In this document: piece after piece, positions 5,623 through 37,009 of the stretch | Layout of the letters: the number at the start of each line of letters is the position of its first letter | Position numbering within the stretch: position 1 is the first letter of the stretch | IMG/VR virus record: IMGVR_UViG_3300028920_000022 | Span: 124,001 to 188,000 of that record | Source of the DNA: a virus | DNA length: 64,000 bases | Strand: one strand, 5' to 3' | Translations under genes and position numbers: made by a program | Notes under the pieces: model-generated | Seen by the model: only the letters and a program-made list of their open reading frames with translations | What the model was told of the DNA's origin: nothing | Database searches by the model: none

Positions 5623-5916
5623 GTGTGCTGTCCACTCTGCAAAAGAAAAGATTGCAATTTTAGCGATCATCATCTAGTTCCTCGCTCACGTGGAGGAACA
5701 CGCCAGGACACCGTTCCTATTTGTTTAGATTGCCACAACGGTGTACATGCGTTCTTTACCAACAAAGAATTAGAAAACGAATTCAACTCTGTCGAGGCGT
5801 TACTGGCTGACGAACGTTTTGCCAAACATCTAAGATGGCTGGCAAAACAAAACCCAACAAGACGTCATCGCTCCAAAAGAGTTCGAGACAAAAAGAAAAG
5901 AAACAGAAGTGGGTGA
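5623..5916 (+). CDS. HNH endonuclease
   Basis: A protein of about 97 residues with a complete HNH core: CPLCKRKDC, then DHHLVPRSRGG (first His pair), and CLDCHNGVHAFF (second Cys pair and His). HNH proteins nick or cut DNA. The free-standing small form is typical of phage homing or packaging-associated nucleases. A stop lies just upstream, so only GTG 5620 or GTG 5623 can start it; 5623 fits the promoter spacing. The C-terminus is very basic (RRHRSKRVRDKKKRNRSG), consistent with DNA contact. Confidence 0.8.
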   Translation: MCCPLCKRKDCNFSDHHLVPRSRGGTRQDTVPICLDCHNGVHAFFTNKELENEFNSVEALLADERFAKHLRWLAKQNPTRRHRSKRVRDKKKRNRSG

Positions 5917-6215
5917 GCTTTATTGGCGAAGAATTAGAAGAATATTATAATTCCCAGTACGATAAGTATTACAATTTTGACTACGACTTTAACTACGACT
6001 TATATAAAATAAATTTTGCACACAGCTGGCAACTATGTGAAAAAGAATCTAGAGAATCTTATGACCCGGTATTTGTTTGTAAGGTTTGCGGAATTTACGC
6101 TATTGGTAAACCTACAGATCGTTATTCTCCACATGTTTACGCTTATTATACGACGAATTACGACGAGTCGACAATGTCTTGTGCTGAGATTTGTGTAAAG
6201 GATATAATCGAATGA
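5913..6215 (+). CDS. CxxCG mini-protein with C-terminal IKDIIE-type tail
   Basis: A protein of about 100 residues, taking GTG 5913 (GTGA overlap with the HNH stop). A longer ATG form from 5835 is possible but would overlap the HNH gene by 82 bases. It contains AHSW, then CKVCGIYA, then SCAEICVKDIIE at the end. The order H-x-aromatic, CxxCG, C-x-E, tail defines a paralogous family in this window. One CxxC pair plus the His and later Cys could bind a metal. The stop overlaps the next ATG, and AAAGGA in the tail codons is that gene's ribosome site. Confidence 0.75.
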   Translation: MSFIGEELEEYYNSQYDKYYNFDYDFNYDLYKINFAHSWQLCEKESRESYDPVFVCKVCGIYAIGKPTDRYSPHVYAYYTTNYDESTMSCAEICVKDIIE

Positions 6216-6695: not shown

Positions 6696-8036
6696 ATGCT
6701 CACAGATGTTCCCGTTATCGATCAGAAATCTCTTGGACGTATCTTTCGCGTAGGTATTCGTGAAGGTAAAAATATTATGATTTTGGGTCCGTCTGGTGGC
6801 GGCAAAACATTTATTGCTGTGGATATCGCTCATTCAGAAGGATGTCGCCTAGTTTATATTAACTTGGCGGTATTGGAACGTACCGATTTCCAGGGGTTTC
6901 CTGTTATCTCTCAGGATAAAACACTGGTATCATACGCTACTCCTGACTTTTTGCCATTCGCCGACACCAACGAACGTGACGAAAAGAACGCTTTGGAAAA
7001 CCTCTCTACCATTCTCAATGACGCAAAAGATAAAAACATCATGGGAGAGATTGATAAGCGCTTGAATGCCGTGGAATATCGTCGTCAGGCTCGTATTATT
7101 GCGAATGCCATGCCGTACCTTTCGGAAGGCTCCCAAAAATCGCTGAAACCATACCTTAATAAGGTTCTAGCAAACCTCCCAGAAGGAAAACCAATTGTAT
7201 TCCTTTTCGATGAGGTCGATAAAGCCGCTAGCGAAACAATGCAAACTCTTCTGGAGTTCCTGCAGTTCAGAAGTATTAACGGACGCAAACTGGATATTAA
7301 GGCTTGTTTGCTGACTGGTAACTTGCCTGATGAACATGCTGCTTCTCAGCAGATTTCGCACGCCATTACGAAACGATGTAAGTCTTACAAGCTACAGTTG
7401 GACTTCAATCAGTGGCGTGAATGGGCTTATGGTCATGCCGTGCATGATTTGGTTGTTGGTTTCTTAACCGCTAACCCGGACTTTTTGCACAAGACCCCTC
7501 CAGACGGTGATCCTACTGCTTATGCTCTGCCGTCTCCTCGAACCTGGACTGACGTTAGTGATTCGTTGTGGGCTTTGGAAAAAGATAATCAATTCCAAAA
7601 GCTGAATGGCGAGGAGTTGGCTGGGTTGCAAAAACTTCTAATTGCTGGAAGCGTAGGAGACACTGCGGCAATTAAATTCGTTAACTGGTTCAAATACTAT
7701 CGTAAGATGGACCCGGTTGTGGAAGCTCTTTTGGAAAAGGGAAAGATGCCTGACCAAAAGAAACTGGACGCCCAGGAACTGTTTATCTGTGCTCTGTCGG
7801 CATGTTCCCGTGTATATAGAGAACTGAAGCCAAAGAACGAAGACAAAATTAAAAAGTATGCCAAGAATGTTTACAAGTGGATTGGTTCCCTTTCTGTAGA
7901 TATTCAAATGGGAGCTTCTCGTATGGCGTTCGGCGGAGACTTCGATAACATCCAAAAGTACCGTCTGTCGGAAATTGACGAGTTTTCCAACGTCTTCAAG
8001 CACATCAAGAAGACGATGCAAACTAATGATATCTGA
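6696..8036 (+). CDS. MoxR-type AAA+ ATPase (copy 1)
   Basis: A 446-residue ATPase. The Walker A is GPSGGGKT (residues 31-38) and the Walker B is VFLFDEVDKA (about 168-177). This is followed by a sensor-1-like LLTGNLPDE and an arginine-rich region, as in MoxR/RavA-class AAA+ proteins. MoxR ATPases act as chaperones with VWA-domain partners, usually encoded next door. The next gene, 5 bases downstream, is exactly such a partner. The protein at 22780 is its paralogue. GAGGAAAAACAAT precedes the ATG as ribosome site. Confidence 0.9.
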   Translation: MLTDVPVIDQKSLGRIFRVGIREGKNIMILGPSGGGKTFIAVDIAHSEGCRLVYINLAVLERTDFQGFPVISQDKTLVSYATPDFLPFADTNERDEKNALENLSTILNDAKDKNIMGEIDKRLNAVEYRRQARIIANAMPYLSEGSQKSLKPYLNKVLANLPEGKPIVFLFDEVDKAASETMQTLLEFLQFRSINGRKLDIKACLLTGNLPDEHAASQQISHAITKRCKSYKLQLDFNQWREWAYGHAVHDLVVGFLTANPDFLHKTPPDGDPTAYALPSPRTWTDVSDSLWALEKDNQFQKLNGEELAGLQKLLIAGSVGDTAAIKFVNWFKYYRKMDPVVEALLEKGKMPDQKKLDAQELFICALSACSRVYRELKPKNEDKIKKYAKNVYKWIGSLSVDIQMGASRMAFGGDFDNIQKYRLSEIDEFSNVFKHIKKTMQTNDI

Positions 8037-8041
8037 GTGCC

Positions 8042-9547
8042 ATGGAAGTAATTAATAAAACAATCCTTGACCCAAAACAGTTGGGTGGGGATAAGTTCAA
8101 CGAATATAATCAAAAAATCTCGGTATCCAAAGTAGCTCTTGCAAAGAGCCCAGAAAAGGGAGGGATGCCGTTTATATTCGCCTTCACTAGCGTGAAAAAC
8201 CACACGTTAGATGAAGTGAAAATGCCGTACCTAAACAAAGACGGAGACGTAGAGTTCTCTTGTACGGCAGCAACTGATGGCAAAGAATATAAATGGAGCC
8301 CTCAGATTCTGGATATCCTGGGACCACGTGAGGTTGCAATCATCACAGCTCACGAAACCTATCATATTGTGTTACAACATTGTAATGCGCACCGTGCGTT
8401 TGGTAAACACAAAATGGCATGGGCGTTGGCGATTGACTATGTTGTCAATGGTATGATTGAACACGATTTGATTCAAAGTAATCAAATCTCTCAGTACGAT
8501 TGCGATAAAGCCAGAACAAACGGGAACCATCCTATTTGGAAGAATGGGATCGGTGGAACTAAAGGTCCGGTTTATTTCGATGAATTAATGAAGGATATCG
8601 AAAAAACCCTCAAACAACTAGCTGAAGATAAGAAAAAAGGTAAGAAATCTGTCGTTCCTACTGGAAATATTGCCGAAAAACAACCCAAACCGCAGGTTAT
8701 TCGTCCATATGCTGATTATAAGTTGTATGGTCGGTCGGCTGAGGATATTTATGATGAAATTATGAAAAAGATGGAGGAGGAAGCTAAGAAAAATGGTATG
8801 AAGCTTTCTGACCTTCTTAGTCCTGGGGATTTTCACCTGCCTGGTGGTTACGTAATTGGTGGCGGATCCATGATGGACGAACATAAAGAAAACGACATCA
8901 GCCGAACCAAACTTTTGGAAGAGGTTATGGATGCCGTTTCTGCTGCTCGTGCACTGTCTGCTGGTAATATGCCATCAGCTATTGAAGATCAGTTAAAAGC
9001 ATTACAAGAGCCAAAACTTAAGTGGCAGGATATCGTTCGCCATGCTCTGCAAACCACCCGCCAGGAAAAAGGTACGCTTAATGATTGGACGCGCATGCGG
9101 CGTCGGTTGGTTTCTTATGAAATCTTTGTGCCCAAAAAGAAGGATCAACGAGTTCGTTGGCTTTGTATGTTGGACACTTCTGGTTCTATGAGCGATGATG
9201 ATATCGTGTACGGAGTCTCACAGTTAAAAGTTTTGGACGGTAGATCTAAAGGTATTGTGGTTCCCTGTGATGCTCAGTGTTATTGGGACCATGCGGTGGA
9301 AATCCATGGCATGAGTGACCTGCCTAAGGTAAAGCCAGTAGGTAGAGGTGGCACCGTGTTTACTGATTTCTTTGAGAACTACGAAAAGAAGATCGCGGAA
9401 GAGATCGACCTAATTATTGTGATTACCGATGGATATTTGTACGATTTGGACATGAAAAAACCTGCAGTGGATTGTGTGTGGGTTATTACCAACGATAATG
9501 AGTTCAAAGCTCCGTTTGGTAGAACTGCACCCTTGCGTTCATATTGA
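8042..9547 (+). CDS. DUF2201-type metallopeptidase/VWA protein (copy 1)
   Basis: A 501-residue protein with two domains. The N-terminal putative metallopeptidase domain has the HETYH (HExxH) motif at residues 104-108 with a conserved downstream helix. The C-terminal VWA domain has a full MIDAS: DTSGSM at about 378, GRGGT, then ITDGYLYD. This is the DUF2201_N plus VWA-like architecture. It is the expected partner of the MoxR ATPase immediately upstream; together they probably remodel a protein or metal complex. The stop overlaps a TTG that begins a homing-endonuclease remnant. Confidence 0.9.
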   Translation: MEVINKTILDPKQLGGDKFNEYNQKISVSKVALAKSPEKGGMPFIFAFTSVKNHTLDEVKMPYLNKDGDVEFSCTAATDGKEYKWSPQILDILGPREVAIITAHETYHIVLQHCNAHRAFGKHKMAWALAIDYVVNGMIEHDLIQSNQISQYDCDKARTNGNHPIWKNGIGGTKGPVYFDELMKDIEKTLKQLAEDKKKGKKSVVPTGNIAEKQPKPQVIRPYADYKLYGRSAEDIYDEIMKKMEEEAKKNGMKLSDLLSPGDFHLPGGYVIGGGSMMDEHKENDISRTKLLEEVMDAVSAARALSAGNMPSAIEDQLKALQEPKLKWQDIVRHALQTTRQEKGTLNDWTRMRRRLVSYEIFVPKKKDQRVRWLCMLDTSGSMSDDDIVYGVSQLKVLDGRSKGIVVPCDAQCYWDHAVEIHGMSDLPKVKPVGRGGTVFTDFFENYEKKIAEEIDLIIVITDGYLYDLDMKKPAVDCVWVITNDNEFKAPFGRTAPLRSY

Positions 9548-13116: not shown

Positions 13117-13422
13117 ATGCAACATACAGGCTTTAAAATACAGTCTAAAATTAAATATATGCAGATAGAAGATTTTGTGGAAAACCTTTTATCTGGTGAC
13201 TTGTTAGCAAAGTATAAATCTCATAATTGGAAAAAGAGGGGACGAAATCACGTTATGTGTAAGAGGTGTGGTAGCTATTTTCATTTTTATGATCCACACA
13301 ACAAAAAACAGGACATTACGTATCATTGTCGGTTCTACACATTTGTGGGCAACTGGCGCGAGTGTGGGTTTGATACCATCTTATCTTGTGTAGACATGCA
13401 AATAAAAGATATAATCGAATGA
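13117..13422 (+). CDS. CxxCG mini-protein with IKDIIE tail
   Basis: A 101-residue member of the CxxCG/tail family: KSHNWKKRG, CKRCGSYFHFY, a second Cys pair later (HCRF, ECGF), then LSCVDMQIKDIIE. The last codons are GATATAATCGAATGA and overlap the next ATG. TTGTGT lies 18 bases before TATAAT here. The N-terminus has an extra helix (MQIEDFVENLLSGDLL). Confidence 0.7.
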   Translation: MQHTGFKIQSKIKYMQIEDFVENLLSGDLLAKYKSHNWKKRGRNHVMCKRCGSYFHFYDPHNKKQDITYHCRFYTFVGNWRECGFDTILSCVDMQIKDIIE

Positions 13423-19642: not shown

Positions 19643-19892
19643 GGATATTACTAACGCAACTTCTGCTGTTTTAATTAATTGCGTGGTAACGTTTAAAATG
19701 CTGAAGATCAACAAACCTTTAGCAATTAAATGTATGCAAGAGTTGGTAAAACGTAGAGAAGCTGGAGAAGAATTAGATTATGAGAACATAATCGATCAGA
19801 AATTAAAAGAATGGCAGGCAAAGGTTGTTAAACCAAGATCCTTGAAAACCCCTCAAGATTTTGCTAAGTTGTTCGCAAAAGACAATGACTGA
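19623..19892 (+). CDS. hypothetical small protein
   Basis: An 89-residue protein overlapping the HU gene by 20 bases and the RNA ligase by 8. It is helical, with KPLAIKCMQELVKRREAGEE, and ends FAKLFAKDND. The tight packing suggests coupled translation with the ligase. No family is recognised. Confidence 0.65.
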   Translation: MVEIQDKDITNATSAVLINCVVTFKMLKINKPLAIKCMQELVKRREAGEELDYENIIDQKLKEWQAKVVKPRSLKTPQDFAKLFAKDND

Positions 19893-21093
19893 ATTATTAG
19901 TACAAAAATATCTGCGATCTGGTAAAACCCTTGATGATCTTTTTCAAGAGCATGGGGTGAAGTCTTATATTTCGAATGGGAAAATAGGATTAAATTATAG
20001 TCAGCTGGAAGCTAAAGGATCTGATCCGTTGGCATGCGAATGTCGCGGATTGATCCTGGAAGAGGGAAGCTTTAATATAATTGCTTGCCCTATGTTCCGA
20101 TTTTTTAATATGGAACAGAAAGAAGTGGCTGCAAAGATCGACTGGAACACTGCCGGCTATTACGAAAAATTGGACGGAAGTTGTGTAAACGTTTATAATT
20201 ACAAAGGAAAATGGCAATGTGCTACTCGGGGGCGTCCAGAAGCTGACGGAAATATTGATGGAGGAGAGTTAAAGTTCTCTGATTTGGTGGATGCCACGAT
20301 CCGATTTATGAGGTTAGGTAAGAATCTCCATGAAGCAATGGAACGGCTGACGTCTTCAAATAGTATCGTAGGACTTTCTGAGAGAACGCTCAGCTTCGAG
20401 TTGACCTCTCCAGTGAACCGTATAGTCTGTAGGTACGAAACTTATTATATGACGCTCCTAGCAATTAAAAATAACAAGACCCTAAAAGAAGAGTCCCCAG
20501 AGCTGTGGGCTGAACGCCTTGGTGGGGCTTTTAAAACTCCGAAAAAATATTCTTTTAATAATATAAATCATTTGATTCAGGTAATAAAAGAATGGAGTCC
20601 TGAAGAACATGAAGGAATTGTTGTAAAAGACGCTAATTATAACCGAATAAAAGTAAAAAGCCCTCAATATTTAGCTTACAATCATTTGAGAGATTCGTTA
20701 TCTACGTCTTTGCGGGGATGTGTTGAGGTTCTTTTGTTGGGTAAGGATGACGATGTGATCCCAATGATGCCTGAGATCATTGCTAGGAGAATAACTTTAT
20801 TAAAACCGTTGGTAGCGGAAGTTTTCAGGCGTACTGAAAAAGATTATGCAGAATTGAAGGGAATAAATGATATGAAGACATATGCTTTGGCGGTCAAAGA
20901 TCGGCTTTGGCCGGCGGCCTTATTTGCATTAAAGCGAAACAAAACCCCAGATTTAAGAACGTTTTCTTTAGGGAGGATGGTTGGTTCAAAAATTCCTTCC
21001 AATGCGACTGCAAACATGTTAGAGTTGTGCCGCCAGGTGGATCCTGCTACCGTTGATGGTTTGAAATCTTTGGTGATAGAGCCTGAAGAATGA
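19885..21093 (+). CDS. RNA ligase (T4 Rnl1-like)
   Basis: A 402-residue protein from ATG 19885 (8-base overlap). Nucleotidyltransferase motifs are YYEKLDGS (adenylated lysine K95 in KxDG), LSFELTSPVNRIV (motif IIIa-like), HEGIVVKD (motif IV) and RIKVKSPQYL (motif V). After the catalytic core is a helical C-terminal domain of about 140 residues, as in Rnl1-type ligases. It joins RNA ends with ATP, classically repairing tRNA cut by host anticodon nucleases. A second, shorter ligase lies at 32143. Confidence 0.9.
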   Translation: MTELLVQKYLRSGKTLDDLFQEHGVKSYISNGKIGLNYSQLEAKGSDPLACECRGLILEEGSFNIIACPMFRFFNMEQKEVAAKIDWNTAGYYEKLDGSCVNVYNYKGKWQCATRGRPEADGNIDGGELKFSDLVDATIRFMRLGKNLHEAMERLTSSNSIVGLSERTLSFELTSPVNRIVCRYETYYMTLLAIKNNKTLKEESPELWAERLGGAFKTPKKYSFNNINHLIQVIKEWSPEEHEGIVVKDANYNRIKVKSPQYLAYNHLRDSLSTSLRGCVEVLLLGKDDDVIPMMPEIIARRITLLKPLVAEVFRRTEKDYAELKGINDMKTYALAVKDRLWPAALFALKRNKTPDLRTFSLGRMVGSKIPSNATANMLELCRQVDPATVDGLKSLVIEPEE

Positions 21094-21800: not shown

Positions 21801-22203
21801 AGAAGATCTTAAATGTGACTGTAAAACAGAGATTGAATTAACTCTGCATATAGATGAGGACGACGATATTTTTGTAGAATATTGGGATCCAGATTATTTG
21901 GCTAATCTGTTTCCAAAAACTTTAAAGAAATTGCGAGATGATTTTGGGGAAAGTAGTATTTCTGCTACAAAAATAATAGAAAGTGACAGCACAAAACTTC
22001 GCTTATTCTTTAAAAAAGGAGTTCATTTAGTTTTAGAACTTTATCCACATTGGATATCGGTACAAGTAGAGCATGGTAAAACTAAAATACCTTATAATTA
22101 TTTGAGAACTTTTGAGGTAGATGATTTTATTTGTAATTATATTAGCAAATGTGATGAGTATTTGACGCCGGAAGAAATTGCGATAAGGGATGTGATTGTG
22201 TGA
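21793..22203 (+). CDS. hypothetical acidic protein with IRDVIV tail
   Basis: A 136-residue protein beginning with an acidic strand pair (CDCKTEIELTLHIDEDDDIF) and ending EEIAIRDVIV. The tail codons are GATGTGATTGTG, with the stop overlapping the GTG start of the next gene. No CxxCG. Function is unknown. Confidence 0.7.
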   Translation: MTEEDLKCDCKTEIELTLHIDEDDDIFVEYWDPDYLANLFPKTLKKLRDDFGESSISATKIIESDSTKLRLFFKKGVHLVLELYPHWISVQVEHGKTKIPYNYLRTFEVDDFICNYISKCDEYLTPEEIAIRDVIV

Positions 22204-22481
22204 GAAAGATCGTCATAAATTCTGTTCAGGAAATGGACGAATGGCTTTCTAATCATCCTGACGCAAAGATGGTTAAAAGAACTGTTAATGATGGAAGTCC
22301 TTACGCTCATGTTCGTTTTATTTCTAAAACAGAAGATGTGAGTTGCCAACTTGGTATGGTGTTATGTACACAAAGTTATTATGCTAGAAAATTAACACAA
22401 GCTTTAGAAGAAGCATCGGAACATGGGGTAGATATTAATAAAATATTGAACGAGTTTTGTATAAAGGACATAATAGAATGA
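22200..22481 (+). CDS. hypothetical protein with DEWL-x-NHPDA motif and IKDIIE tail
   Basis: A 93-residue protein, GTG start overlapping the previous stop (GTGTGA). Residues 9-20 read EMDEWLSNHPDA, shared with the next gene (ELDEWLQNHPDA), so the two are tandem paralogues. It ends NEFCIKDIIE. TTGAAC, 17 bases, then CATAAT overlaps its end, a possible promoter reading into the next gene. Confidence 0.7.
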   Translation: MRKIVINSVQEMDEWLSNHPDAKMVKRTVNDGSPYAHVRFISKTEDVSCQLGMVLCTQSYYARKLTQALEEASEHGVDINKILNEFCIKDIIE

Positions 22482-22783
22482 TGAAAACAAGAAAAGTAAC
22501 TGCTCAAGAGTTAGATGAGTGGTTGCAAAATCATCCAGACGCCTATGTGTCAGATAGCGGGGATTTTGGTTTTTATTCTGATTGGGCGAATGAGTTGGTT
22601 TTGTGCGAGATTAACGAATTTTGTAAATCAAGTTTGGCTTCTAAAATTAGAGAAAAGTTCAAAGAAATAGCAGAAACTCAAGCATGTTAAGAATTACAAA
22701 ACGCGCTTAAAAGAGCAATGAAACTAAACTTAGATGTTTTTAAGATTGTAGATGAAGTAACGATAGAGGAAGTTATTAAATGA
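22478..22783 (+). pseudogene. tandem paralogue of the 22200 gene interrupted by an in-frame TAA
   Basis: From ATG 22478 the frame reads ELDEWLQNHPDA and runs to TAA 22688-22690 after 70 codons. Continuing in the same frame gives ELQNALKRAMKLNLDVFKIV, then EVTIEEVIK and a TGA at 22781. This aligns with the C-terminal KLTQALEEA ... INKILNEFCIKDIIE of the neighbour. A single nonsense codon therefore splits an otherwise intact gene. Either it is a recent pseudogene, the 21-codon end is translated separately from ATG 22718, or the stop is read through. Confidence 0.7.
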
Positions 22784-24084
22784 CCACAATTGCACAAGCA
22801 AAAGAACGTATCTTAACCAAATTGGATTGGGATAATACAGACCTAAGTTATCCGGTTATTTTGTGGGGTCCGCCGGGATTGGGGAAAAGTTTTTTGGTAG
22901 TTTCTCTTGTGTGCGAACGCATGATCGAAGATCTTAAAAAAGAATACTACGAAAAGGCTAAAGACATTACCGACAAAGAAGGCGAAGAATATCAAAAATT
23001 AACAGCAGAATTAGAAAGAAAACTCAAACTGCTTAATTTTGATGATATTACACACGAATTATTGGAGTTTATTGCGCCTCATTGTTTGGTTCTACGGTTA
23101 GCAGAACGTCCCATCGAACAGCTACAGGGTGTAGTTGTGCCATCAATGTCCGACAAGGATAATTTTGCCAGGTTTGTTATGCCAGAAAACCTAGTAAAAC
23201 TTAAGGAAAGCAAATGGGGAATAGTGTTTTTAGATGAGCTAGATAAGGCTAGCGATTCTAAATTCGGTGCAGCTACCCACATTCTAGAGAATAAAGTGGT
23301 TGGAGATCTTCAGCTTGGCAAAGGCTGGTATGTAATAGCAGCAGCAAACCGGGAAGAGGATTCTCATTTATCCAACCCAATTCCTCCGGAGCTTCGCAAC
23401 CGTTGCGCCAATATTGAAGTCGAAGGAGATTTGAATACTTGGATTAAATGGGCAGTTAAACATAATGTTCGCAAGGATATTATTCTATTTCATAAATTTA
23501 AGAATGGAGAATGGTTATGTAACTATGATCTTGAACAAACATATGCATTTCCTACCCCGAGATCTTGGGTGATGGCGAGCAGAACCATAGATCGGTTGCA
23601 GAAAAAACTTAATCCAAAACCTGACGACATTAAAGCCATGGAGAATTTCGATAATTTGGTTAGATATGAACTGATGGATTTCGTTGGCAAACAAGCTCAG
23701 GCTGAATTCTTCCAATACCGAGAAGCATATTTGAAATTTAATGTACAAGAGATTTTGGATGGAAGAAAAAGGATTGCTACCAAGGATAATTGCCCAAACG
23801 AAACCGTTCTAATAAGCGATCAATGTATTGCCGCATTTGCTATGGCAGATCAGGTCACTCCAGATATGTTGGGTAAAAAGGGAGACGAATCTCAAGCGTT
23901 TAAATTTCAAGCAGATTCGTTACGGATGAGGAATTTAACTCAGTTTATTGGTGATTTGTTACCAGAAATTCGTACCATATATCTACAACAGATTCATACT
24001 ACTAGGATAATGAATATTATAGCAGATTCTGGTTTGGCGGATGATATCATGGAAGATATAATCGAATACATAGCGGCGGCATGA
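22780..24084 (+). CDS. MoxR-type AAA+ ATPase (copy 2)
   Basis: A 434-residue ATPase. The Walker A is GPPGLGKS (residues 30-37) and the Walker B is IVFLDELDKAS (about 148-158). It has sensor-1 IAAANREED and the MoxR-like PTPRSW segment also seen in copy 1 (PSPRTW). A 40-residue charged insertion (KKEYYEKAKDITDKEGEEY) follows Walker A. It ends EDIIEYIAAA: the tail-like DIIE is present but extended by six residues. Its VWA partner, adjacent in copy 1, lies 4.2 kb downstream here (28285). Confidence 0.9.
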   Translation: MTTIAQAKERILTKLDWDNTDLSYPVILWGPPGLGKSFLVVSLVCERMIEDLKKEYYEKAKDITDKEGEEYQKLTAELERKLKLLNFDDITHELLEFIAPHCLVLRLAERPIEQLQGVVVPSMSDKDNFARFVMPENLVKLKESKWGIVFLDELDKASDSKFGAATHILENKVVGDLQLGKGWYVIAAANREEDSHLSNPIPPELRNRCANIEVEGDLNTWIKWAVKHNVRKDIILFHKFKNGEWLCNYDLEQTYAFPTPRSWVMASRTIDRLQKKLNPKPDDIKAMENFDNLVRYELMDFVGKQAQAEFFQYREAYLKFNVQEILDGRKRIATKDNCPNETVLISDQCIAAFAMADQVTPDMLGKKGDESQAFKFQADSLRMRNLTQFIGDLLPEIRTIYLQQIHTTRIMNIIADSGLADDIMEDIIEYIAAA

Positions 24085-24527
24085 TGGCTCAAATATTAAT
24101 CCCTTGCAAAGAATGCGACGGTACAGGTTTAGGGATTTATCCTAACGAATGTACTAATTGTAACGGTACAGGAGTAGCTCAACAAGTTTATGACACAACC
24201 ATAAAAGAATGGTTTGATGCATTCAAAAAAGAAGTGGATGATGTTAGATTTGAAATTAAGGAACTAAAAAAGGAAAACAAACAATTAAATGAGTTGATAT
24301 TATGCCTTTTGTTAAAGGATATGGATGAGGATTCGGTTTTTAAGATAAAAAGAAGGATAGACCAAAGTTTAGATTATGAAAGTCGATACAGACCCTACCC
24401 TTCCGATCATGATCCTGGATTGTTGTTGGGGTATAAATTAGAAATAAGCAATGGCAAAATATTAATTCGTTTTGTTGATAGTAATTTAACACTTGAAGAA
24501 GAGATTGCTAAGGAAATAATAGAATGA
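24081..24527 (+). CDS. DnaJ-type cysteine motif/coiled-coil protein with EIIE tail
   Basis: A 148-residue protein. Residues 8-33 hold two CxxCxGxG motifs (CKECDGTG and CTNCNGTG), half of the DnaJ zinc domain. A coiled coil follows (EVDDVRFEIKELKKENKQL), and it ends EEIAKEIIE. No J-domain is present. Adjacent to the MoxR ATPase (ATGA overlap), it may be an adaptor for it; this is inference. Confidence 0.7.
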   Translation: MMAQILIPCKECDGTGLGIYPNECTNCNGTGVAQQVYDTTIKEWFDAFKKEVDDVRFEIKELKKENKQLNELILCLLLKDMDEDSVFKIKRRIDQSLDYESRYRPYPSDHDPGLLLGYKLEISNGKILIRFVDSNLTLEEEIAKEIIE

Positions 24528-24823
24528 CAACATTACTTCCGGACGGTTCTGCTTTTTGTTGTGGTAGTTTTCCGCTTCCGAAAGGACATTGGTTGTATAA
24601 AAAAGGACATAACAAACCACCTATGCGGTTTCGTTTGGGAACGGATCATCCTGAACATAAAGCATGGGAACAGTCGGTAAAAGAAGCTGCTAGATTTACA
24701 ATTAGAGCGGCTACAATGAACGGAACGGACAACGATTTTGATCCGGATGCCATGGTTCAGATGTTTATTATAGGAATGATTGGGTATTATACTCCGGACG
24801 GGAGAAGCTCAGAGGATATATGA
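24524..24823 (+). CDS. hypothetical phage protein
   Basis: A 99-residue protein starting at the ATG overlapping the previous tail. It contains GSFPLPKGHWLYKKGHNKP and HKAWEQSVKEAARFTIRAAT, a combination I associate with conserved phage proteins of unknown function. The helical C-terminus is acidic. ATGA-coupled to the next gene. Confidence 0.65.
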   Translation: MTTLLPDGSAFCCGSFPLPKGHWLYKKGHNKPPMRFRLGTDHPEHKAWEQSVKEAARFTIRAATMNGTDNDFDPDAMVQMFIIGMIGYYTPDGRSSEDI

Positions 24824-25002
24824 CAAAGGTAGAATCAGAAGAAATGGTTGCCAAAGCTTTAATGACCGAGGAAGGCAAACAAGCTTTACGACCAATTATC
24901 GAAGAAGCTGGAGCAATTTTTGCCGATATGTATCCTGAAGGTTCTTTTGGATACCATTTAGGACGAGCTGTGGCGGGGTTGCCGCCTAAGGGTTTAAAAT
25001 GA
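24820..25002 (+). CDS. hypothetical small protein
   Basis: A 60-residue protein of two helices (MVAKALMTEEGKQALRPIIE) ending GYHLGRAVAGLPPKGLK. ATGA-coupled on both sides. Unrecognised. Confidence 0.6.
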   Translation: MTKVESEEMVAKALMTEEGKQALRPIIEEAGAIFADMYPEGSFGYHLGRAVAGLPPKGLK

Positions 25003-25346
25003 AAAATAAAAGCGGTGCAGAATTAATTGCAGACGAAAGAAAACGACAGGTTGAGACAGAAGGTTGGACAGCTGAACACGACGATAATCATTCTTATGGA
25101 GAATTAGCTATTGCGGCGGTTTGTTATACAGCTGCAGGCGCGGGTATTGAAGTTTTTCAACATTGTGAGACACACAAACCGCAACATACGTTTATTGACC
25201 CTTGGCCATGGGAAAAAGAGTGGGATAAACGTTTGGAATATGGTAGGTTGCCATCTTCTACTGACGAAAAACGTGATTTGTTGATCAAAGCTGGGGCATT
25301 AATTGCTGCTGAAATTGATAGACTGAATAGGATTCAAAATGTATAG
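24999..25346 (+). CDS. conserved phage protein (EGWT-x-EHDD family)
   Basis: A 115-residue protein with the recurring phage signature IADERKRQ-x4-EGWTAEHDDNH, a middle DPWPWEKEWDKR and a C-terminal DLLIKAGALIAAEIDRLNR. The helical His/Glu/Asp pattern resembles small MazG-like pyrophosphohydrolases but lacks the classic EExxE...ExxD motif. No function is assigned. Confidence 0.7.
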   Translation: MKNKSGAELIADERKRQVETEGWTAEHDDNHSYGELAIAAVCYTAAGAGIEVFQHCETHKPQHTFIDPWPWEKEWDKRLEYGRLPSSTDEKRDLLIKAGALIAAEIDRLNRIQNV

Positions 25347-25581
25347 ACACTATCGATACACTACATCATATCCTTTAGGAACAGATCGTGGCAGGGCGCC
25401 CACGTTAGCTCGGTTTGAGCGAGATACTTCCGAATTATCTGACGATTATACTTTTGATTGGCAACGCCCTAAACGTTTTGGTAATGGTTGGTGGCTAGCA
25501 GTAAACAATTCTACCGCAGAGGAAGATTATTATTTTGATTTTGAAGCTGATTGTTGGCTGCCTACTAAGGATGATCGATGA
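25339..25581 (+). CDS. hypothetical small protein
   Basis: An 80-residue aromatic-rich protein (YRHYRYTTSYPLGTDRGRAP; NGWWLAVNNS; DYYFDFEADCWLP). It overlaps both neighbours by a few bases. No family is recognised. Confidence 0.65.
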   Translation: MYRHYRYTTSYPLGTDRGRAPTLARFERDTSELSDDYTFDWQRPKRFGNGWWLAVNNSTAEEDYYFDFEADCWLPTKDDR

Positions 25582-25922
25582 AAAAGCGTTTGCGAAAAAA
25601 GAAGAGAGTAGGAGAGTTTCGCGAGGATGGTTTTCGTATTCTGGCGGAAGTAAATGTTACAAATAATTCTCCAGAGAACCTACAATTCGTGGATGATTTT
25701 ATTGAATTTATGGTGAACAGAAACCTTGGTATTGGCGGAGGTATTGGTGACAAAGTGGATGTTTTCTGTGCATATTTAGGGCGCGGAACATGTACCGAAG
25801 AAGATCGTCAAACTGTTATTGAGTGGCTTAAAAACCAACCTTTAGTATCGCGATTTAAGATTGGACCTCTTATAGATGGTTGGTACTTTACAGATGAAGA
25901 ATATGAATTGGTATTAGATTAA
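25578..25922 (+). CDS. YggL-like (DUF469) ribosome-associated protein
   Basis: A 114-residue protein matching YggL along its length: basic start MKKRLRKKKRVGEFREDGF, VDDFIEFMVNRNLGIGGG, RGTCTEEDRQTVIEWLKNQP, and a short acidic end. In proteobacteria YggL binds the 50S ribosomal subunit and is linked to ribosome biogenesis. A phage copy, with the bS21-like gene at 56474, suggests direct interference with host ribosomes. ATGA-coupled to the preceding gene. Confidence 0.8.
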   Translation: MKKRLRKKKRVGEFREDGFRILAEVNVTNNSPENLQFVDDFIEFMVNRNLGIGGGIGDKVDVFCAYLGRGTCTEEDRQTVIEWLKNQPLVSRFKIGPLIDGWYFTDEEYELVLD

Positions 25923-25948
25923 CATGGTGAAATTATTGCATATATTGT

Positions 25949-26110
25949 ATGAGCGAATGGGAAGTAACTCGTCATTATATTTCCGATGTTATGTTACCAA
26001 TGCCGAAGGTGGTAATGTGGACACGAAATATTAATTTTATGATAAGCTGGTTAGAATCGTATGTCGAGGCAGTAGATTTAGGTGTAGTTAATCCAGACTT
26101 TAGACCATAA
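25949..26110 (+). CDS. hypothetical 53-residue protein
   Basis: ATG 25949 to TAA 26108. The product is aromatic and hydrophobic (MSEWEVTRHYISDVMLPMPK, then NFMISWLESYVEAV). It has no clear ribosome site. A shorter overlapping frame from ATG 25924 exists, but its product looks less protein-like. It fills the gap between the YggL and radical-SAM-like genes. Confidence 0.5.
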   Translation: MSEWEVTRHYISDVMLPMPKVVMWTRNINFMISWLESYVEAVDLGVVNPDFRP

Positions 26111-26121
26111 AGGAAATACAA

Positions 26122-26838
26122 ATGGGTTATATTGAGAATCCTAAAACTGTTGGTAGTGGAATTTTGTGTGCAATCCCGCAAACTGGTGTTTGTCCCGTGG
26201 GTTGTCCCGATTGTTTCTTCCAATCGGGAAGATCATATCTCGAACCGTTGGATGAAAACTTACCCAACCTTCCTCCATTAAACAGAACCGCTGGGAAAAT
26301 TGTTAGATTGAACGATGGTAATGATTCTAATATACAAAGGGAGGAAGTGGAAAGGGTTGCCGAGCTGTACGGGGCAGCGTTTTTTAATACCTCCATACCA
26401 AAACGGTTAGCAGAGTTTAAAAAACCCGTAGTTCTTACAGTTAATCCTGGTAATATGACTGATGTTCGGGCACATTTAGTTGATCCTTGTCCCCAAAACC
26501 TAATGTTTGTTCGTGTAAGAGTAAATACTTGGAATTTAAGTTTGGTAGATAAAGTTGTGGCACATTATTCGGAGAGAAAGGTGCCAACGGTTTTGACGTT
26601 TATGGCTCATTACGAAGGATTTATCCCAGCAGATCATAGGGATAATTATTCTTTTAGGAAGCGTACTTTAAATTCTTATTGGGTAATAACTCCTGAAGCT
26701 TGGGATAATATTGTTGCACGTTACAAGGACAATTCGTTGGTTTATACTTGTGGTAAAGACTCAAACACCCATGCTTGTAAGCACTGTGGCAATTGTTTGA
26801 GAGAATATTTTTCTACAATTTCTCGTTGTGACTCATAG
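26122..26838 (+). CDS. radical-SAM-like iron-sulfur protein
   Basis: A 238-residue protein with C24-x3-C28-x2-C31 (GVCPVGCPDCFF), the radical SAM cluster spacing, and a beta/alpha body (VVLTVNPGNM; LMFVRVRVN; VPTVLTFMAHY). The C-terminus has another cysteine set (YTCGKDSNTHACKHCGNCLR) that could hold an auxiliary cluster. The usual GGE motif is not evident, so the class is uncertain. The ribosome site AAGGAAA precedes ATG 26122. Confidence 0.65.
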   Translation: MGYIENPKTVGSGILCAIPQTGVCPVGCPDCFFQSGRSYLEPLDENLPNLPPLNRTAGKIVRLNDGNDSNIQREEVERVAELYGAAFFNTSIPKRLAEFKKPVVLTVNPGNMTDVRAHLVDPCPQNLMFVRVRVNTWNLSLVDKVVAHYSERKVPTVLTFMAHYEGFIPADHRDNYSFRKRTLNSYWVITPEAWDNIVARYKDNSLVYTCGKDSNTHACKHCGNCLREYFSTISRCDS

Positions 26839-27031
26839 AACACCAAATTTCAAACTAGACGGGTTGGGAGAACATATTTTTGCGTCAGATGGCGAAATTG
26901 TTTTTCGTTTGCGCTGCATTAAATGTGGAAAAATAGTCTACAAAGTGCGCAACAGCGAAGGCAAGATTGAATTATGGAGCTATGATTCGCTAACTTGTGT
27001 GGAAGGTCAGATAAAGGATATAATAGAATGA
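26828..27031 (+). CDS. CxxCG mini-protein with IKDIIE tail
   Basis: A 67-residue minimal member of the family, GTG start inside the previous gene's end. Landmarks are GEHIFASDG, CIKCGKIVY, then LTCVEGQIKDIIE. TTGTGT, 18 bases, TATAAT lies within its last 36 bases, and AAAGGA serves the next gene. Confidence 0.7.
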   Translation: MTHRTPNFKLDGLGEHIFASDGEIVFRLRCIKCGKIVYKVRNSEGKIELWSYDSLTCVEGQIKDIIE

Positions 27032-27570
27032 CTTGCATTGTTGGTTTGGTTCATGGAAGTAGGGTCTATATTGGAGGAGACAGTTGTGGGGCGGCAGTGG
27101 AAAGGTATGATGTGGTTAGTAGAAAAGATCCAAAAGTATTCAAAGTAGGAAAGTTTTTATTTGGGTACACCTCTTCGTTTAGGATGGGGCAATTAATTCG
27201 TTTTTCGTTTAAACCGCCTAAGAACGATTGCAAAAATGATTATGAGTATTTGTGTACTAAATTCGTGGACGAGATAAGATCGGTTTATAAAAACGGAGGA
27301 TATCTAACCGTAGATAATTCTGTTGAAACTGGCGGAATATTTTTGTTAGGATATAACGGACAACTATATACGGTAGAGGATGATTTTGATGTAGGAATGG
27401 CTAATTTGGAGTATTATTCTATAGGCGCCGGAGCCAATTATGCTTTAGGGGCAATGTATCAGTCTGGATTAACTAAAAAGAGACCACAAGAAAGAATTAA
27501 AAACGCATTAGATGCTGCAGCTACGTTTAATGGTGCCGTTATGCCGCCATACAAGATACTTTGGGTCTGA
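27028..27570 (+). CDS. proteasome/HslV-like Ntn hydrolase
   Basis: A 180-residue protein from ATG 27028 (ATGA overlap). MTCIVGLVHGSRVYIGGDS gives Thr2 as the N-terminal nucleophile after Met removal, and Asp at nucleophile-position 17. PKVFKVGKFLFGYTSSFRMG holds the lysine equivalent to proteasomal K33. Later blocks GIFLLGYNGQLYTVEDDF and YYSIGAGANYALGAMY are typical of beta-subunit folds. It may be a peptidase or amidohydrolase. A partner ATPase could be one of the AAA+ proteins here. Confidence 0.8.
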   Translation: MTCIVGLVHGSRVYIGGDSCGAAVERYDVVSRKDPKVFKVGKFLFGYTSSFRMGQLIRFSFKPPKNDCKNDYEYLCTKFVDEIRSVYKNGGYLTVDNSVETGGIFLLGYNGQLYTVEDDFDVGMANLEYYSIGAGANYALGAMYQSGLTKKRPQERIKNALDAAATFNGAVMPPYKILWV

Positions 27571-27571
27571 C

Positions 27572-27931
27572 ATGGCTAAAAAAGGTGGAACAATTGATAC
27601 AAGGTGGGGACATCTTAGTGGTGGTAAGTTGTGGAAAGGACCTGACGAAGGACAAATATTCGGAATAGATGCAGAATTAGGTTTCAACTCCTACTATATG
27701 GGACCAACTTGGCGAGTAACCCGCTTTCCGTTTTTTGCCGGCATAACTGAACGATGTAGTGATTTTCTTTGGGAGTTATCTTTTGAATACAACAGAAAAA
27801 CACCCATAGACAAAGGATGTTGTTCTGAATGGAAAGACTGTAATACAGAATTAATACGTTCTGCTGGCAAGTTGCTCATAAATTTGGAATGGTTTTTGAC
27901 ACAATACAAAATATTGGACGTAATAGAATGA
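27572..27931 (+). CDS. hypothetical protein with ILDVIE tail
   Basis: A 119-residue protein from ATG 27572, one base after the previous stop. It contains WRVTRFPFFAGITERCSDFL and an acidic C-terminus ending QYKILDVIE. TTGACA lies 17 bases before CGTAAT in its last codons, another promoter-like overlap. The body is unrecognised. Confidence 0.65.
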   Translation: MAKKGGTIDTRWGHLSGGKLWKGPDEGQIFGIDAELGFNSYYMGPTWRVTRFPFFAGITERCSDFLWELSFEYNRKTPIDKGCCSEWKDCNTELIRSAGKLLINLEWFLTQYKILDVIE

Positions 27932-28284
27932 GAAAACTCAAGCTCATAATGAGTGATACTAACTTCACTAACGCCGTGGTCCATGATGAAAACGGTGAGG
28001 AGATTGGTTATATATCAGAAATAGCTATACGCCCCAAAAGAAGCATGATGTTTATTCGGGTAGAAGATAATATTTCCAGCACAGATATGGCTACTTTAAG
28101 AGACGTGATAAAGGAATCCTTACACGATGGCTCACCAGATCCTTTTGTTATTTGTACCAACCATTTGAATGTTGGGAAGATAACTTTAGACGATTATCAA
28201 GTGGATAATGCTAAGATTATAGCAAAACATGATGGGGAATGGCTAAGCGAAGAAGATGTAACCATCAAAGATATAATCGAATAG
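27928..28284 (+). CDS. hypothetical protein with IKDIIE tail
   Basis: A 118-residue protein from ATG 27928 (ATGA overlap). It is beta-rich (KLIMSDTNFTNAVVHDENGE; GYISEIAIRPKRS) and ends EEDVTIKDIIE. The stop is TAG, directly abutting the VWA gene, so here the tail is kept without an ATGA overlap. Confidence 0.7.
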   Translation: MRKLKLIMSDTNFTNAVVHDENGEEIGYISEIAIRPKRSMMFIRVEDNISSTDMATLRDVIKESLHDGSPDPFVICTNHLNVGKITLDDYQVDNAKIIAKHDGEWLSEEDVTIKDIIE

Positions 28285-29622
28285 ATGGATACCAAAGAAG
28301 AACAAAAGATTATCGAGGAAACACGTAGGGTTTTTGCGTCGCTGGCTCTTATTGCACCATTTGCTTATCCAATGTTGGCTATGCCAATAAGATTGGACCC
28401 ACGATTACCAGCGCCTGCGGCAACCAATGGTGTAACTGTTATTATTAACCCTAAAGAATGGGAGAAGAAAACATTCAAGCAAAAAATGTTTATTGCGATC
28501 CATGAATGGATGCATATTGCTTTGCTTCATTGTAAAAAGTTGGGTAAAAAAAGAAGGGTGATGCACAATTATTGCTGTGATTTTAACATTAATTCTATGA
28601 TTCGGATTGACATGAAAGATCAATTCGAGATGCCATGTTGTCTTTTCGATCCAACATACCACAACAAATCTTCCGAAGAAATATACAAGGATTTAAATAA
28701 CGAAGTAAAGCGACGTCAAGAAGAAGGAATGACGCCATTTTGTCATTGTTGTAACAGAGAGTTTGTTAAGGGTGATTATGCGGATGGGCGCTGGAAAGAT
28801 CCTGATGTGGTTAAATGTCCTGTGTGCAAACGTCCTACGGCTGATGGAAAAGAAATACCGGAACCTGAATATGTAGACAGAGAGAACGCAATTAACCAAT
28901 TAATGGTAGAAGAGTTTGGGGCGCCTTGGGGAAACGATTTGCAGGATCTTCCAGTAGATGCGGATGAACAAAAAATAATTGATCAGGTTATGAAAGCTGC
29001 GGCAAGATGTCGTTCGCAAGGTAAAATGCCAGGCTCAATGCCGTCTTTTTATGAAGAGTATATAGAAACAATTAAAAAATCTAATGTTCCATGGTATCGT
29101 ATTTTATATAGGTACGCTAAAGAGTCGTTAAAAGGAAATACAGATCGAAATCCATTTAAACCGGACCCTAAGTATTTACCATTTGATATATTTATTCCTA
29201 CAGAAAGAGGAAGAAGAGTTAGCAAATTAGTATTAATTGTTGACACTTCTGGTTCGATGGAGACAGAAGAATTTAAATATGCAGCCGGACATATAGAAAA
29301 GTTCTGCACATTAGTAGATAATTTAACTGTCATAACTGCTGATACTATTGTACAGGAGGTGCTTCGGGTGCGGAACGTGAGGCGAGAATTAAAGAAACAT
29401 GCCTTGAAGTTTAAGGGCAGAGGTGGTACAAGGATGGATGAAGCATTTGAAGCAGCCAACAAACTGCGTCCGAGTCTGATTATTCTTTATTCTGATATGT
29501 ACATTGGTGATTTTCCCCCAAAACCGCGTGCTCCTGTTATATTTTTAGCTACCAAGGATGCAAATATTACAAAGGTACCATATGGAATTCTTCTTAACAT
29601 GGAATCGCAAGGACAATATTAA
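28285..29622 (+). CDS. DUF2201-type metallopeptidase/VWA protein (copy 2)
   Basis: A 445-residue paralogue of the 8042 protein. HEWMH (HExxH) is at residues 73-77. A zinc ribbon (CHCCNREF ... CPVCKRPT) at about 153-193 is absent from copy 1. The VWA domain has DTSGSM at about 320, KGRGGT and LYSDMYIGD. It is presumed to work with the MoxR ATPase at 22780, from which it is separated by ten small genes. Confidence 0.9.
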   Translation: MDTKEEQKIIEETRRVFASLALIAPFAYPMLAMPIRLDPRLPAPAATNGVTVIINPKEWEKKTFKQKMFIAIHEWMHIALLHCKKLGKKRRVMHNYCCDFNINSMIRIDMKDQFEMPCCLFDPTYHNKSSEEIYKDLNNEVKRRQEEGMTPFCHCCNREFVKGDYADGRWKDPDVVKCPVCKRPTADGKEIPEPEYVDRENAINQLMVEEFGAPWGNDLQDLPVDADEQKIIDQVMKAAARCRSQGKMPGSMPSFYEEYIETIKKSNVPWYRILYRYAKESLKGNTDRNPFKPDPKYLPFDIFIPTERGRRVSKLVLIVDTSGSMETEEFKYAAGHIEKFCTLVDNLTVITADTIVQEVLRVRNVRRELKKHALKFKGRGGTRMDEAFEAANKLRPSLIILYSDMYIGDFPPKPRAPVIFLATKDANITKVPYGILLNMESQGQY

Positions 29623-31502: not shown

Positions 31503-31817
31503 GTGAGCGAGTTATATTTATTATTCATACCACCGATTCTTTTAATTGTGTTATCGATAATTGTGTATTTTTTTACCAAACCCACACAATTGCAGATAAA
31601 ACACAATCTTATTGGAACATACGGGGAGGTAATTTATCCTGTTGACAGGCGGGACGGAGCCATTGTAGTATGGGAAGGCGATGAGGAAGTAATTATATTT
31701 TGTAGATCTTATGGATCAAAAATAGCGGAAGGTGCCACAGTCATTATTACTGAGTATGATTTTAGAGAAAGAACTTTTCGTATTGAACCAAGTCCCAGGA
31801 AAATATATAGACACTGA
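31503..31817 (+). CDS. membrane protein with NfeD-like domain
   Basis: A 104-residue protein, GTG start. One membrane segment at residues 4-25 (LYLLFIPPILLIVLSIIVYF) precedes a small beta barrel: LIGTYGEVIYPVDRRDGAIV, VIIFCRSYGSKIAEGATVII. This resembles the OB-like domain of NfeD proteins, which partner with membrane proteases and flotillins. TGATG-coupled to another membrane protein. Confidence 0.6.
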   Translation: MSELYLLFIPPILLIVLSIIVYFFTKPTQLQIKHNLIGTYGEVIYPVDRRDGAIVVWEGDEEVIIFCRSYGSKIAEGATVIITEYDFRERTFRIEPSPRKIYRH

Positions 31818-32146
31818 TGTTTTTAGGCATGGAAGCAGAACCAAAAGAAGAAAAAACAGCTTGGTTGTTAACTTTTCTTTCTTGGGTTGTTTATATTTTT
31901 ATTGGTGTGGTGTCGTCCTATTATAGGTGGGTGATTTTGTTTATTCCTATTATTATGTTGTTAAGTTTTATAGTAGCGGTAGTTGCTGACAAAATGTATG
32001 GTGGTTTTAATCCAAGTTATACGTTGTGGAGCAAAATTAAAACAATTTTTCTCATAAGTCTTTTAGTGCCACTATCTATACCGTGGATTATTAAGTGTTT
32101 GAGAAGAGATTATTTGGAAGAAATAATTCAAGATATAATTGAATGA
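31817..32146 (+). CDS. multi-pass membrane protein with IQDIIE tail
   Basis: A 109-residue protein with about three hydrophobic segments (residues 14-30, 34-54, 72-90). It ends DYLEEIIQDIIE. The tail on a membrane protein would face one side of the membrane, probably the cytoplasm. ATGA-coupled to the RNA ligase. Confidence 0.65.
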   Translation: MFLGMEAEPKEEKTAWLLTFLSWVVYIFIGVVSSYYRWVILFIPIIMLLSFIVAVVADKMYGGFNPSYTLWSKIKTIFLISLLVPLSIPWIIKCLRRDYLEEIIQDIIE

Positions 32147-32751
32147 AAACCTATCCCACAATACCGTCAGAGGTCCAGTCTGGATTTCATATAATCGCTT
32201 TCAATAAGCTGGACGGATCTAATATACGTGCAGAATGGTCCAAAAAGAAAGGTTTCTATAAATTCGGAACTAGGAAAAGGCTACTTGGAGAAGACGAGAA
32301 GCCATTGGGCGAAGCAATTAGCCTTGCTAGAAACAAATATGAGAAAGATTTGTCAGATATATTTCGTAAGTTACGATGTCAAAACGCTATTTGCTTTCTA
32401 GAGTTTTGGGGAAAGCGTTCAGCTTTCGGTAGACATGTGGTCGAGCCGCATGATATTACTTTATTTGATGTGTGCTTATATAAACAGGGAATAATGTTTC
32501 CTAAAGAGTATTTGAAGAACTTTGGACATTTAGATATTGCTCAGGTTTTATATCAGGGACCGTGCAATTCTGAGTTCGTTAATAGTGTACGTGAGGGTAC
32601 ATTAGAAAACATGGGACCTGAAGGCGTGGTCTGCAAAGCGCCGGGCACACATAAAAAACCATTGATGTTTAAAATCAAAAGAAACACTTGGTATGAACGA
32701 CTGCGTGAGTATTGCCAAGGTGATGAAAAACTTTTTAATGAATTGGTTTAA
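32143..32751 (+). CDS. RNA ligase (short, Rnl2-like core)
   Basis: A 202-residue protein holding only the nucleotidyltransferase core. Motif I is FNKLDGSN (K22), motif III is CFLEFWGK, motif IV is GPEGVVCK and motif V is MFKIKRNTW. It lacks the C-terminal domain of the 19885 ligase, so substrate choice may differ. ATP-dependent RNA end sealing is the expected reaction. Confidence 0.85.
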   Translation: MKTYPTIPSEVQSGFHIIAFNKLDGSNIRAEWSKKKGFYKFGTRKRLLGEDEKPLGEAISLARNKYEKDLSDIFRKLRCQNAICFLEFWGKRSAFGRHVVEPHDITLFDVCLYKQGIMFPKEYLKNFGHLDIAQVLYQGPCNSEFVNSVREGTLENMGPEGVVCKAPGTHKKPLMFKIKRNTWYERLREYCQGDEKLFNELV

Positions 32752-36352: not shown

Positions 36353-37009
36353 ATGAAAAAAATGAGCTTTGTCCATCCCATGATTTATGAAAAGACACGG
36401 GATGGGGAAATGTTATATGATGTTTATTCGCGCCTAATAAAGGAACGCATAGTTTTTCTAGCAGATGAGGTGGATGTGGAGGTAGCAACAACGGTAGCTG
36501 CTACCTTTTTGTTTCTGGACAGCCAGAGCAAAACGAAACCAATCTCCCTGTATATTAATTCCCCTGGCGGTTCTGTACATGATGGGCTGTTTACCATTTA
36601 CGATGCCATAAATTATATAGAGTGTCCTGTTAAAACTGTGTGCTTAGGTGAGGCTGCTTCCGCGGCTGCAACAATATTGGCTGCCGGTTCACCCGGAATG
36701 AGGTTTGCTACTCCTAATAGTTTAATCATGATTCACCAGTTGCAGATTTCAGATTTGTCTGGTAAAGGAACAGATGTAGCAAAGGAAGCAGAACGGATTA
36801 AAGAATGGAACGAGAGATTGTTTCAAACATTAGCCCGCCATACTGGGCATACTACTGAGGAAATTGCTCAAGTATGTAGAGATGATACGTATTTTAACGC
36901 AAAACAAGCTAAGGAATTCGGTTTGATTGATGAAATTGTTGAACCGAAGAAAAAGATTCCCGATTTAATTACCCAAACCCCAAAAGCAAGACGGAAAAAG
37001 GGTTCGTGA
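36353..37009 (+). CDS. clpP: ClpP-family serine protease
   Basis: A 218-residue protein with catalytic S103 (GEAASAAA), H128 (IMIHQ) and D177 (CRDDTYF). The spacing of 25 and 49 equals that of E. coli ClpP S97/H122/D171. YINSPGGSVHDGL supplies the oxyanion loop. It has the full peptidase length but no ClpX/ClpA gene nearby. It would need a host unfoldase or one of the phage AAA+ proteins. Phage ClpPs are often prohead proteases; a degradation role is the alternative. Confidence 0.9.
   Translation: MKKMSFVHPMIYEKTRDGEMLYDVYSRLIKERIVFLADEVDVEVATTVAATFLFLDSQSKTKPISLYINSPGGSVHDGLFTIYDAINYIECPVKTVCLGEAASAAATILAAGSPGMRFATPNSLIMIHQLQISDLSGKGTDVAKEAERIKEWNERLFQTLARHTGHTTEEIAQVCRDDTYFNAKQAKEFGLIDEIVEPKKKIPDLITQTPKARRKKGS

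Follow-up and report, generated by a model that had tools for sequence, protein, structure and literature searches.

What could a very large bacterial virus do with a stand-alone proteasome-like hydrolase, and do the ATPase and VWA proteins encoded on either side of it take part? The question is raised by an Ntn hydrolase gene at 27028–27570 (+) of the window, that is, of the whole 64,000-nucleotide stretch of DNA that was analysed, which belongs to a virus record of 458,729 bp. The frame is intact and comprises 180 codons. Proteasome-like proteins are widespread in phages, and the literature found assigns them no function.

The identity of the product as a proteasome-like Ntn hydrolase is solid; its substrate and function we infer. 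The initial annotation had described a stand-alone protein of this kind with 180 residues, and PHROGs, profile, AlphaFold2 and Foldseek results bear this out. In PHROGs the protein falls into phrog_1040, "peptidase HslV family" (E 1.1e-19), so that the family is already named there, and such phage proteins have already been described as AAH and PPH. A tblastn search with the protein matched 205 phage records, including T5-like Salmonella phages, Asteriusvirus jumbo phages and Vibrio phages; the protein of Moorella phage MTATph1 is 43% identical to that of the window. Pfam and NCBIfam scans of the single window sequence gave no proteasome family match, and none of its HslV family matches rose above a curated cut-off. 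A profile of 52 relatives matched BPH (4e-8) and HslV (1e-5) in the PDB, and PF00227 was reached by 17 of these relatives at E 0.1 or better. The nearest bacterial relatives, found among the best 80 genome loci, occur in Azospirillum, Rhizobium, Frankia, Dactylosporangium and Paenibacillus. In the FastTree tree, the branches near the window protein are all long and poorly supported.

The ATG of the gene overlaps the stop codon (ATGA) of an upstream gene, 26828–27031 (+), which encodes 67 aa according to the ORF list. A longer frame starting with TTG at 26995 is unlikely, because stop codons lie 0–5 codons before Met-Thr in many relatives and the initiator-Thr pair is kept throughout. Conservation of the peptide MTCIVGLV in the first set of loci was biased by the search pattern, and the N-terminus was therefore rechecked on other relatives, namely 8 published phages and 80 bacterial loci. 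The exact search peptide is absent from 52 of these 88 sequences, and Thr directly follows the start codon (ATG, GTG or TTG) in all 88. The protein therefore has no propeptide, and removal of Met would be enough to expose the nucleophile. Thr is a small residue, and bacterial Met-aminopeptidase accepts it at position 2; by this established rule, removal of Met1 from the Ntn hydrolase is expected.

A comparison of the predicted structure with HslV and proteasome beta subunits had been proposed initially, and it gave an Ntn fold. The AlphaFold2 model (pLDDT 96.2, pTM 0.91) contains the beta-sheet core and the helix pairs H1–H4, with helices at residues 51–60, 71–89, 136–147 and 153–167. The best solved match in Foldseek is BPH (TM 0.80), followed by HslV (TM about 0.68), proteasome subunits and Anbu.

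The Thr, Asp and Lys active-site positions pointed out at the outset are invariant in 53/53 sequence clusters. These are Thr2 (codon 27031–27033, +), the presumed nucleophile, which would become Thr1 of the mature protein; Asp18 (27079–27081, +), corresponding to proteasome Asp17; and Lys36 (27133–27135, +), corresponding to proteasome Lys33 and aligned to the BPH Lys (Lys37 in Td-BPH). Cluster conservation and the BPH alignment also mark the motif Ser49-Ser50-Phe-Arg-Met-Gly-Gln-Leu56 (27172–27195, +) as a hallmark of the family; its Ser50 and Arg52 are invariant there, and Asp119 is likewise kept. The downstream beta-subunit blocks, which had been reported as present, are kept only in part, two second-shell positions being different from those of BPH: Ser49 stands at the position of the oxyanion Gly (proteasome Gly47, BPH Gly50), and the position of BPH Ser139 is probably occupied by Ala134. 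BPH residue numbers follow PMC5777263, and the equivalences come from the profile alignment. Among 52 family members, Gly is found at the former position in 5 and Cys at the latter in 39. An oxyanion hole uses backbone NH, and its function may therefore remain despite Ser49. The loop after H2 has 17 residues and is mildly acidic, with a mean net acidity of about 1, so the cavity may differ from that of BPH, in which the pore loop is long and strongly acidic.

Among the known systems, HslV shares the fold, the triad and the length with the window protein. HslV forms a dodecameric ring activated by HslU; no hslU was found in the window record, and both the profile match and the fold match to HslV are weaker than those to BPH. 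In the account of Fuchs, Alva and Lupas (2021, PMC8665760), AAH and PPH are proteasome homologs that occur in phages and have no propeptide; no AAA+ partner was detected there for the new homologs, these two included. The same paper reports AAH from phages, Alphaproteobacteria, Actinobacteria and Firmicutes prophages and gives PPH a length of about 140 residues, with helix H2 missing. Judged from its sequence and from published descriptions of AAH, the window protein is likely a group I proteasome-like Ntn hydrolase of the AAH subfamily, since length, helix H2 and host range fit. AAH proteins are likewise compact; the window protein differs in having Ser at the oxyanion Gly position. With PPH it shares the phage origin and the missing propeptide, but it is longer and has H2 at residues 71–89.

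The solved structures of BPH (PDB 5ovs, 5ovt, 5ovu) provide the closest fold, with the same Thr-Asp-Lys triad and likewise no known unfoldase. The two proteins differ in sequence (about 20% identity), in the phage origin of the window protein, in its apparently shorter and less acidic pore loop and in the replacement of Gly50 and Ser139 of BPH by Ser49 and probably Ala134. BPH assembles into tetradecamers whose Thr1 binds epoxomicin, and the paper describing it mentions that a cofactor may be lacking or that the range of substrates may be narrow (PMC5777263).

On these grounds the protein is probably an AAH-type, BPH-like threonine peptidase that acts independently of ATP and has an accessory role. 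Formyl-Met would be removed by deformylase and Met-aminopeptidase of the host or the phage, exposing Thr1. Homology to BPH makes self-assembly plausible, and the subunits could form a BPH-like double ring with the active sites inside. Such a ring could cut polypeptides that are small or unfolded and would need no ATP-driven unfoldase. The enzyme might thus serve in host takeover or protein turnover as the product of a mobile phage gene, and it would be neither a partner of the adjacent MoxR/VWA proteins nor the main head-maturation protease. Ring formation, activity and substrates of the window protein we infer. The replacements at Ser49 and probably Ala134 count against a BPH-like peptidase, and the literature found reports neither a ring nor an activity for AAH or PPH, which was also weighed against this explanation. 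Gene neighbourhoods that differ between phage groups count in favour of a mobile accessory gene.

The phage could supply the N-terminal maturation itself. Domain searches of the record matched a peptide deformylase at E 1e-23 and, at E 3e-33, an M24-family peptidase of the Met-aminopeptidase type; they are encoded at G000:193439-193840 and G000:356786-357499 (L170, L171). The link is circumstantial, because the M24 peptidase is present in only 3 of 49 Ntn-bearing records, all of them jumbo phages; a coupling of the M24 peptidase to Ntn genes was rejected. The C-terminus of the deformylase resembles a SEC-C zinc motif, and an adjoining ORF resembles translation factor IF-3 by eye.

The window holds two MoxR/VWA pairs, a compact one at 6729–9532 and one at 22780–29622 whose parts are separated by about 11 genes, the Ntn gene among them. 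The placement of the Ntn gene between the parts of the second pair had been recognised correctly. These parts are a MoxR-type AAA+ ATPase (22780–24084, +; phrog_1297) and a VWA and metallopeptidase-like protein (28285–29622, +; DUF2201, phrog_1314), both assigned by Pfam and PHROGs. It had further been suggested that a phage AAA+ protein passes substrates to the hydrolase. In its fullest form this would be an ATP-dependent protease in which the MoxR ATPase feeds the Ntn ring and the VWA protein acts as an adaptor. The position of the Ntn gene between two genes of the same strand speaks for such a system, as does Moorella phage MTATph1, where an ATPase/VWA pair lies about 2.4 kb from the Ntn gene.

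Comparison with other phages speaks against it. The ORFs flanking about 80 other viral Ntn loci (up to 10 kb a side, E 0.001) included no MoxR homolog and one VWA homolog. Whole-record searches of eight published Ntn phages showed that both families are absent from four; Escherichia phage ph0011 has the pair 55 kb from its Ntn gene, Aeromonas phage 2L372X has it at a distance of about 23 kb and on the opposite strand, and an Ochrobactrum phage gave only a weak MoxR/VWA match. Searches with MoxR and VWA matched 596 and 343 phage records, the listed matches being mostly from jumbo and N4-like phages; the Ntn matches listed include none from an N4-like phage. Neither AAA_5 nor AAA_2 was matched in most of the viral records that carry an Ntn gene, several of them 30–91 kb long; this is weak evidence, because many of these records are fragments. 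Gene neighbourhood and co-occurrence thus led to rejection of either gene as a conserved partner. Since the pair is rarely near Ntn genes and is absent from half of the published phages, and since the AAA domains are mostly missing, its position around the Ntn gene is best read as coincidental. Feeding by MoxR is accordingly judged very unlikely, and the suggestion of a phage AAA+ feeder is not supported. The neighbourhood data speak against an unfoldase that the phage would dedicate to this enzyme and make ATP-independent activity the first to be considered.

The absence of HslU noted initially extends to the entire 458.7 kb record, in which no AAA_2 domain of the ClpX/HslU type was matched at E 0.001. 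The record does contain a second stand-alone protease core, a ClpP-family protease gene at 36353–37009 (E 2.5e-60), 9 kb from the Ntn gene; no ClpX-type AAA_2 ATPase that could pair with it was detected in the record.

A host unfoldase might take the place of a phage one. The Ntn protein could borrow host HslU or co-assemble with host HslV, redirecting or poisoning host proteolysis, and both the nearness of its fold to HslV and the lack of a phage unfoldase in the record would suit this. Such use of host components is nevertheless unlikely, given that related genes are also found on the chromosomes of Azospirillum, Frankia and Dactylosporangium and that the sequence is nearer to BPH, for which no unfoldase is known.

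Another explanation regards the protein as a specific processing or ligation enzyme, either connectase-like or a protease of head or tail maturation, and not as a general peptidase. Connectase provides the precedent that an Ntn fold can serve as a ligase (PMC8665760). Terminase, portal or capsid genes occur no more than about 7 kb from the Ntn gene in 17 clusters, mostly of small phages, and in several of these the two are direct neighbours. However, standard prohead proteases coexist with the Ntn gene, of the S78 type in L020 and of the ClpP family in L023 and L028, because of which a role as the sole prohead protease was rejected. In large phages, the regions examined show the gene at a distance from head genes, and the AlphaFold2 model lacks a two-helix insertion of the connectase type. 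A processing or ligation role is therefore given a small chance, and the ATP-independent accessory peptidase is preferred. One T5-like phage and one Vibrio phage have the Ntn gene beside genes of thymidylate synthase and related nucleotide metabolism. Tandem Ntn paralogs occur at L056 9427–10558 and L072 4650–5815, and the annotation of Aeromonas phage 2L372X shows them as well (gp211 and gp001); some phages may therefore build mixed, hetero-oligomeric rings.

The Ntn gene also sits, as stated initially, among genes for proteins with a common C-terminal tail, and a tail scan places such genes directly on both sides of it: the upstream protein ends in IKDIIE, and the downstream one (27572–27931, +; 119 aa) in ILDVIE. 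Of the phage's 842 ORFs, counted over the record with 100001–104000 set aside, about 73 end in the consensus (S/T)C-x-E-x-x-I-(R/K)-(D/E)-I-I-(E/K/T). Tail-bearing ORFs are mostly 58–175 aa long; in the window they include 5835–6215, 13117–13422, 22200–22481, 26828–27031, 27889–28284 and 31817–32146, and their largest cluster is over 100 kb from the Ntn gene. An origin of the tail as a by-product of ribosome-binding sites was suspected at first and dropped, because the peptide is conserved through synonymous codon changes and dozens of proteins share it.

Outside the window, 67 of the phage's 722 ORFs terminate in a similar pattern, whereas 1 of 2487 ORFs does so around the Ntn genes of other viruses. 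The tail is thus real and genome-wide in this phage and does not travel with the Ntn family, so the idea that the hydrolase recognises tails is not supported as a general function. That the Ntn ring, the MoxR/VWA proteins and roughly 70 tailed proteins would form a phage-made, degron-directed degradation system peculiar to this lineage is considered extremely improbable.

Other genes of the window were noted in passing. A 238-aa protein encoded at 26122–26838 carries the motif CPVGCPDC (CX3CX2C), which looks radical-SAM-like by eye, and has no Pfam match. ORFs at 19861–21093 and 32143–32751 contain KLDG motifs and resemble RNA ligases by eye.
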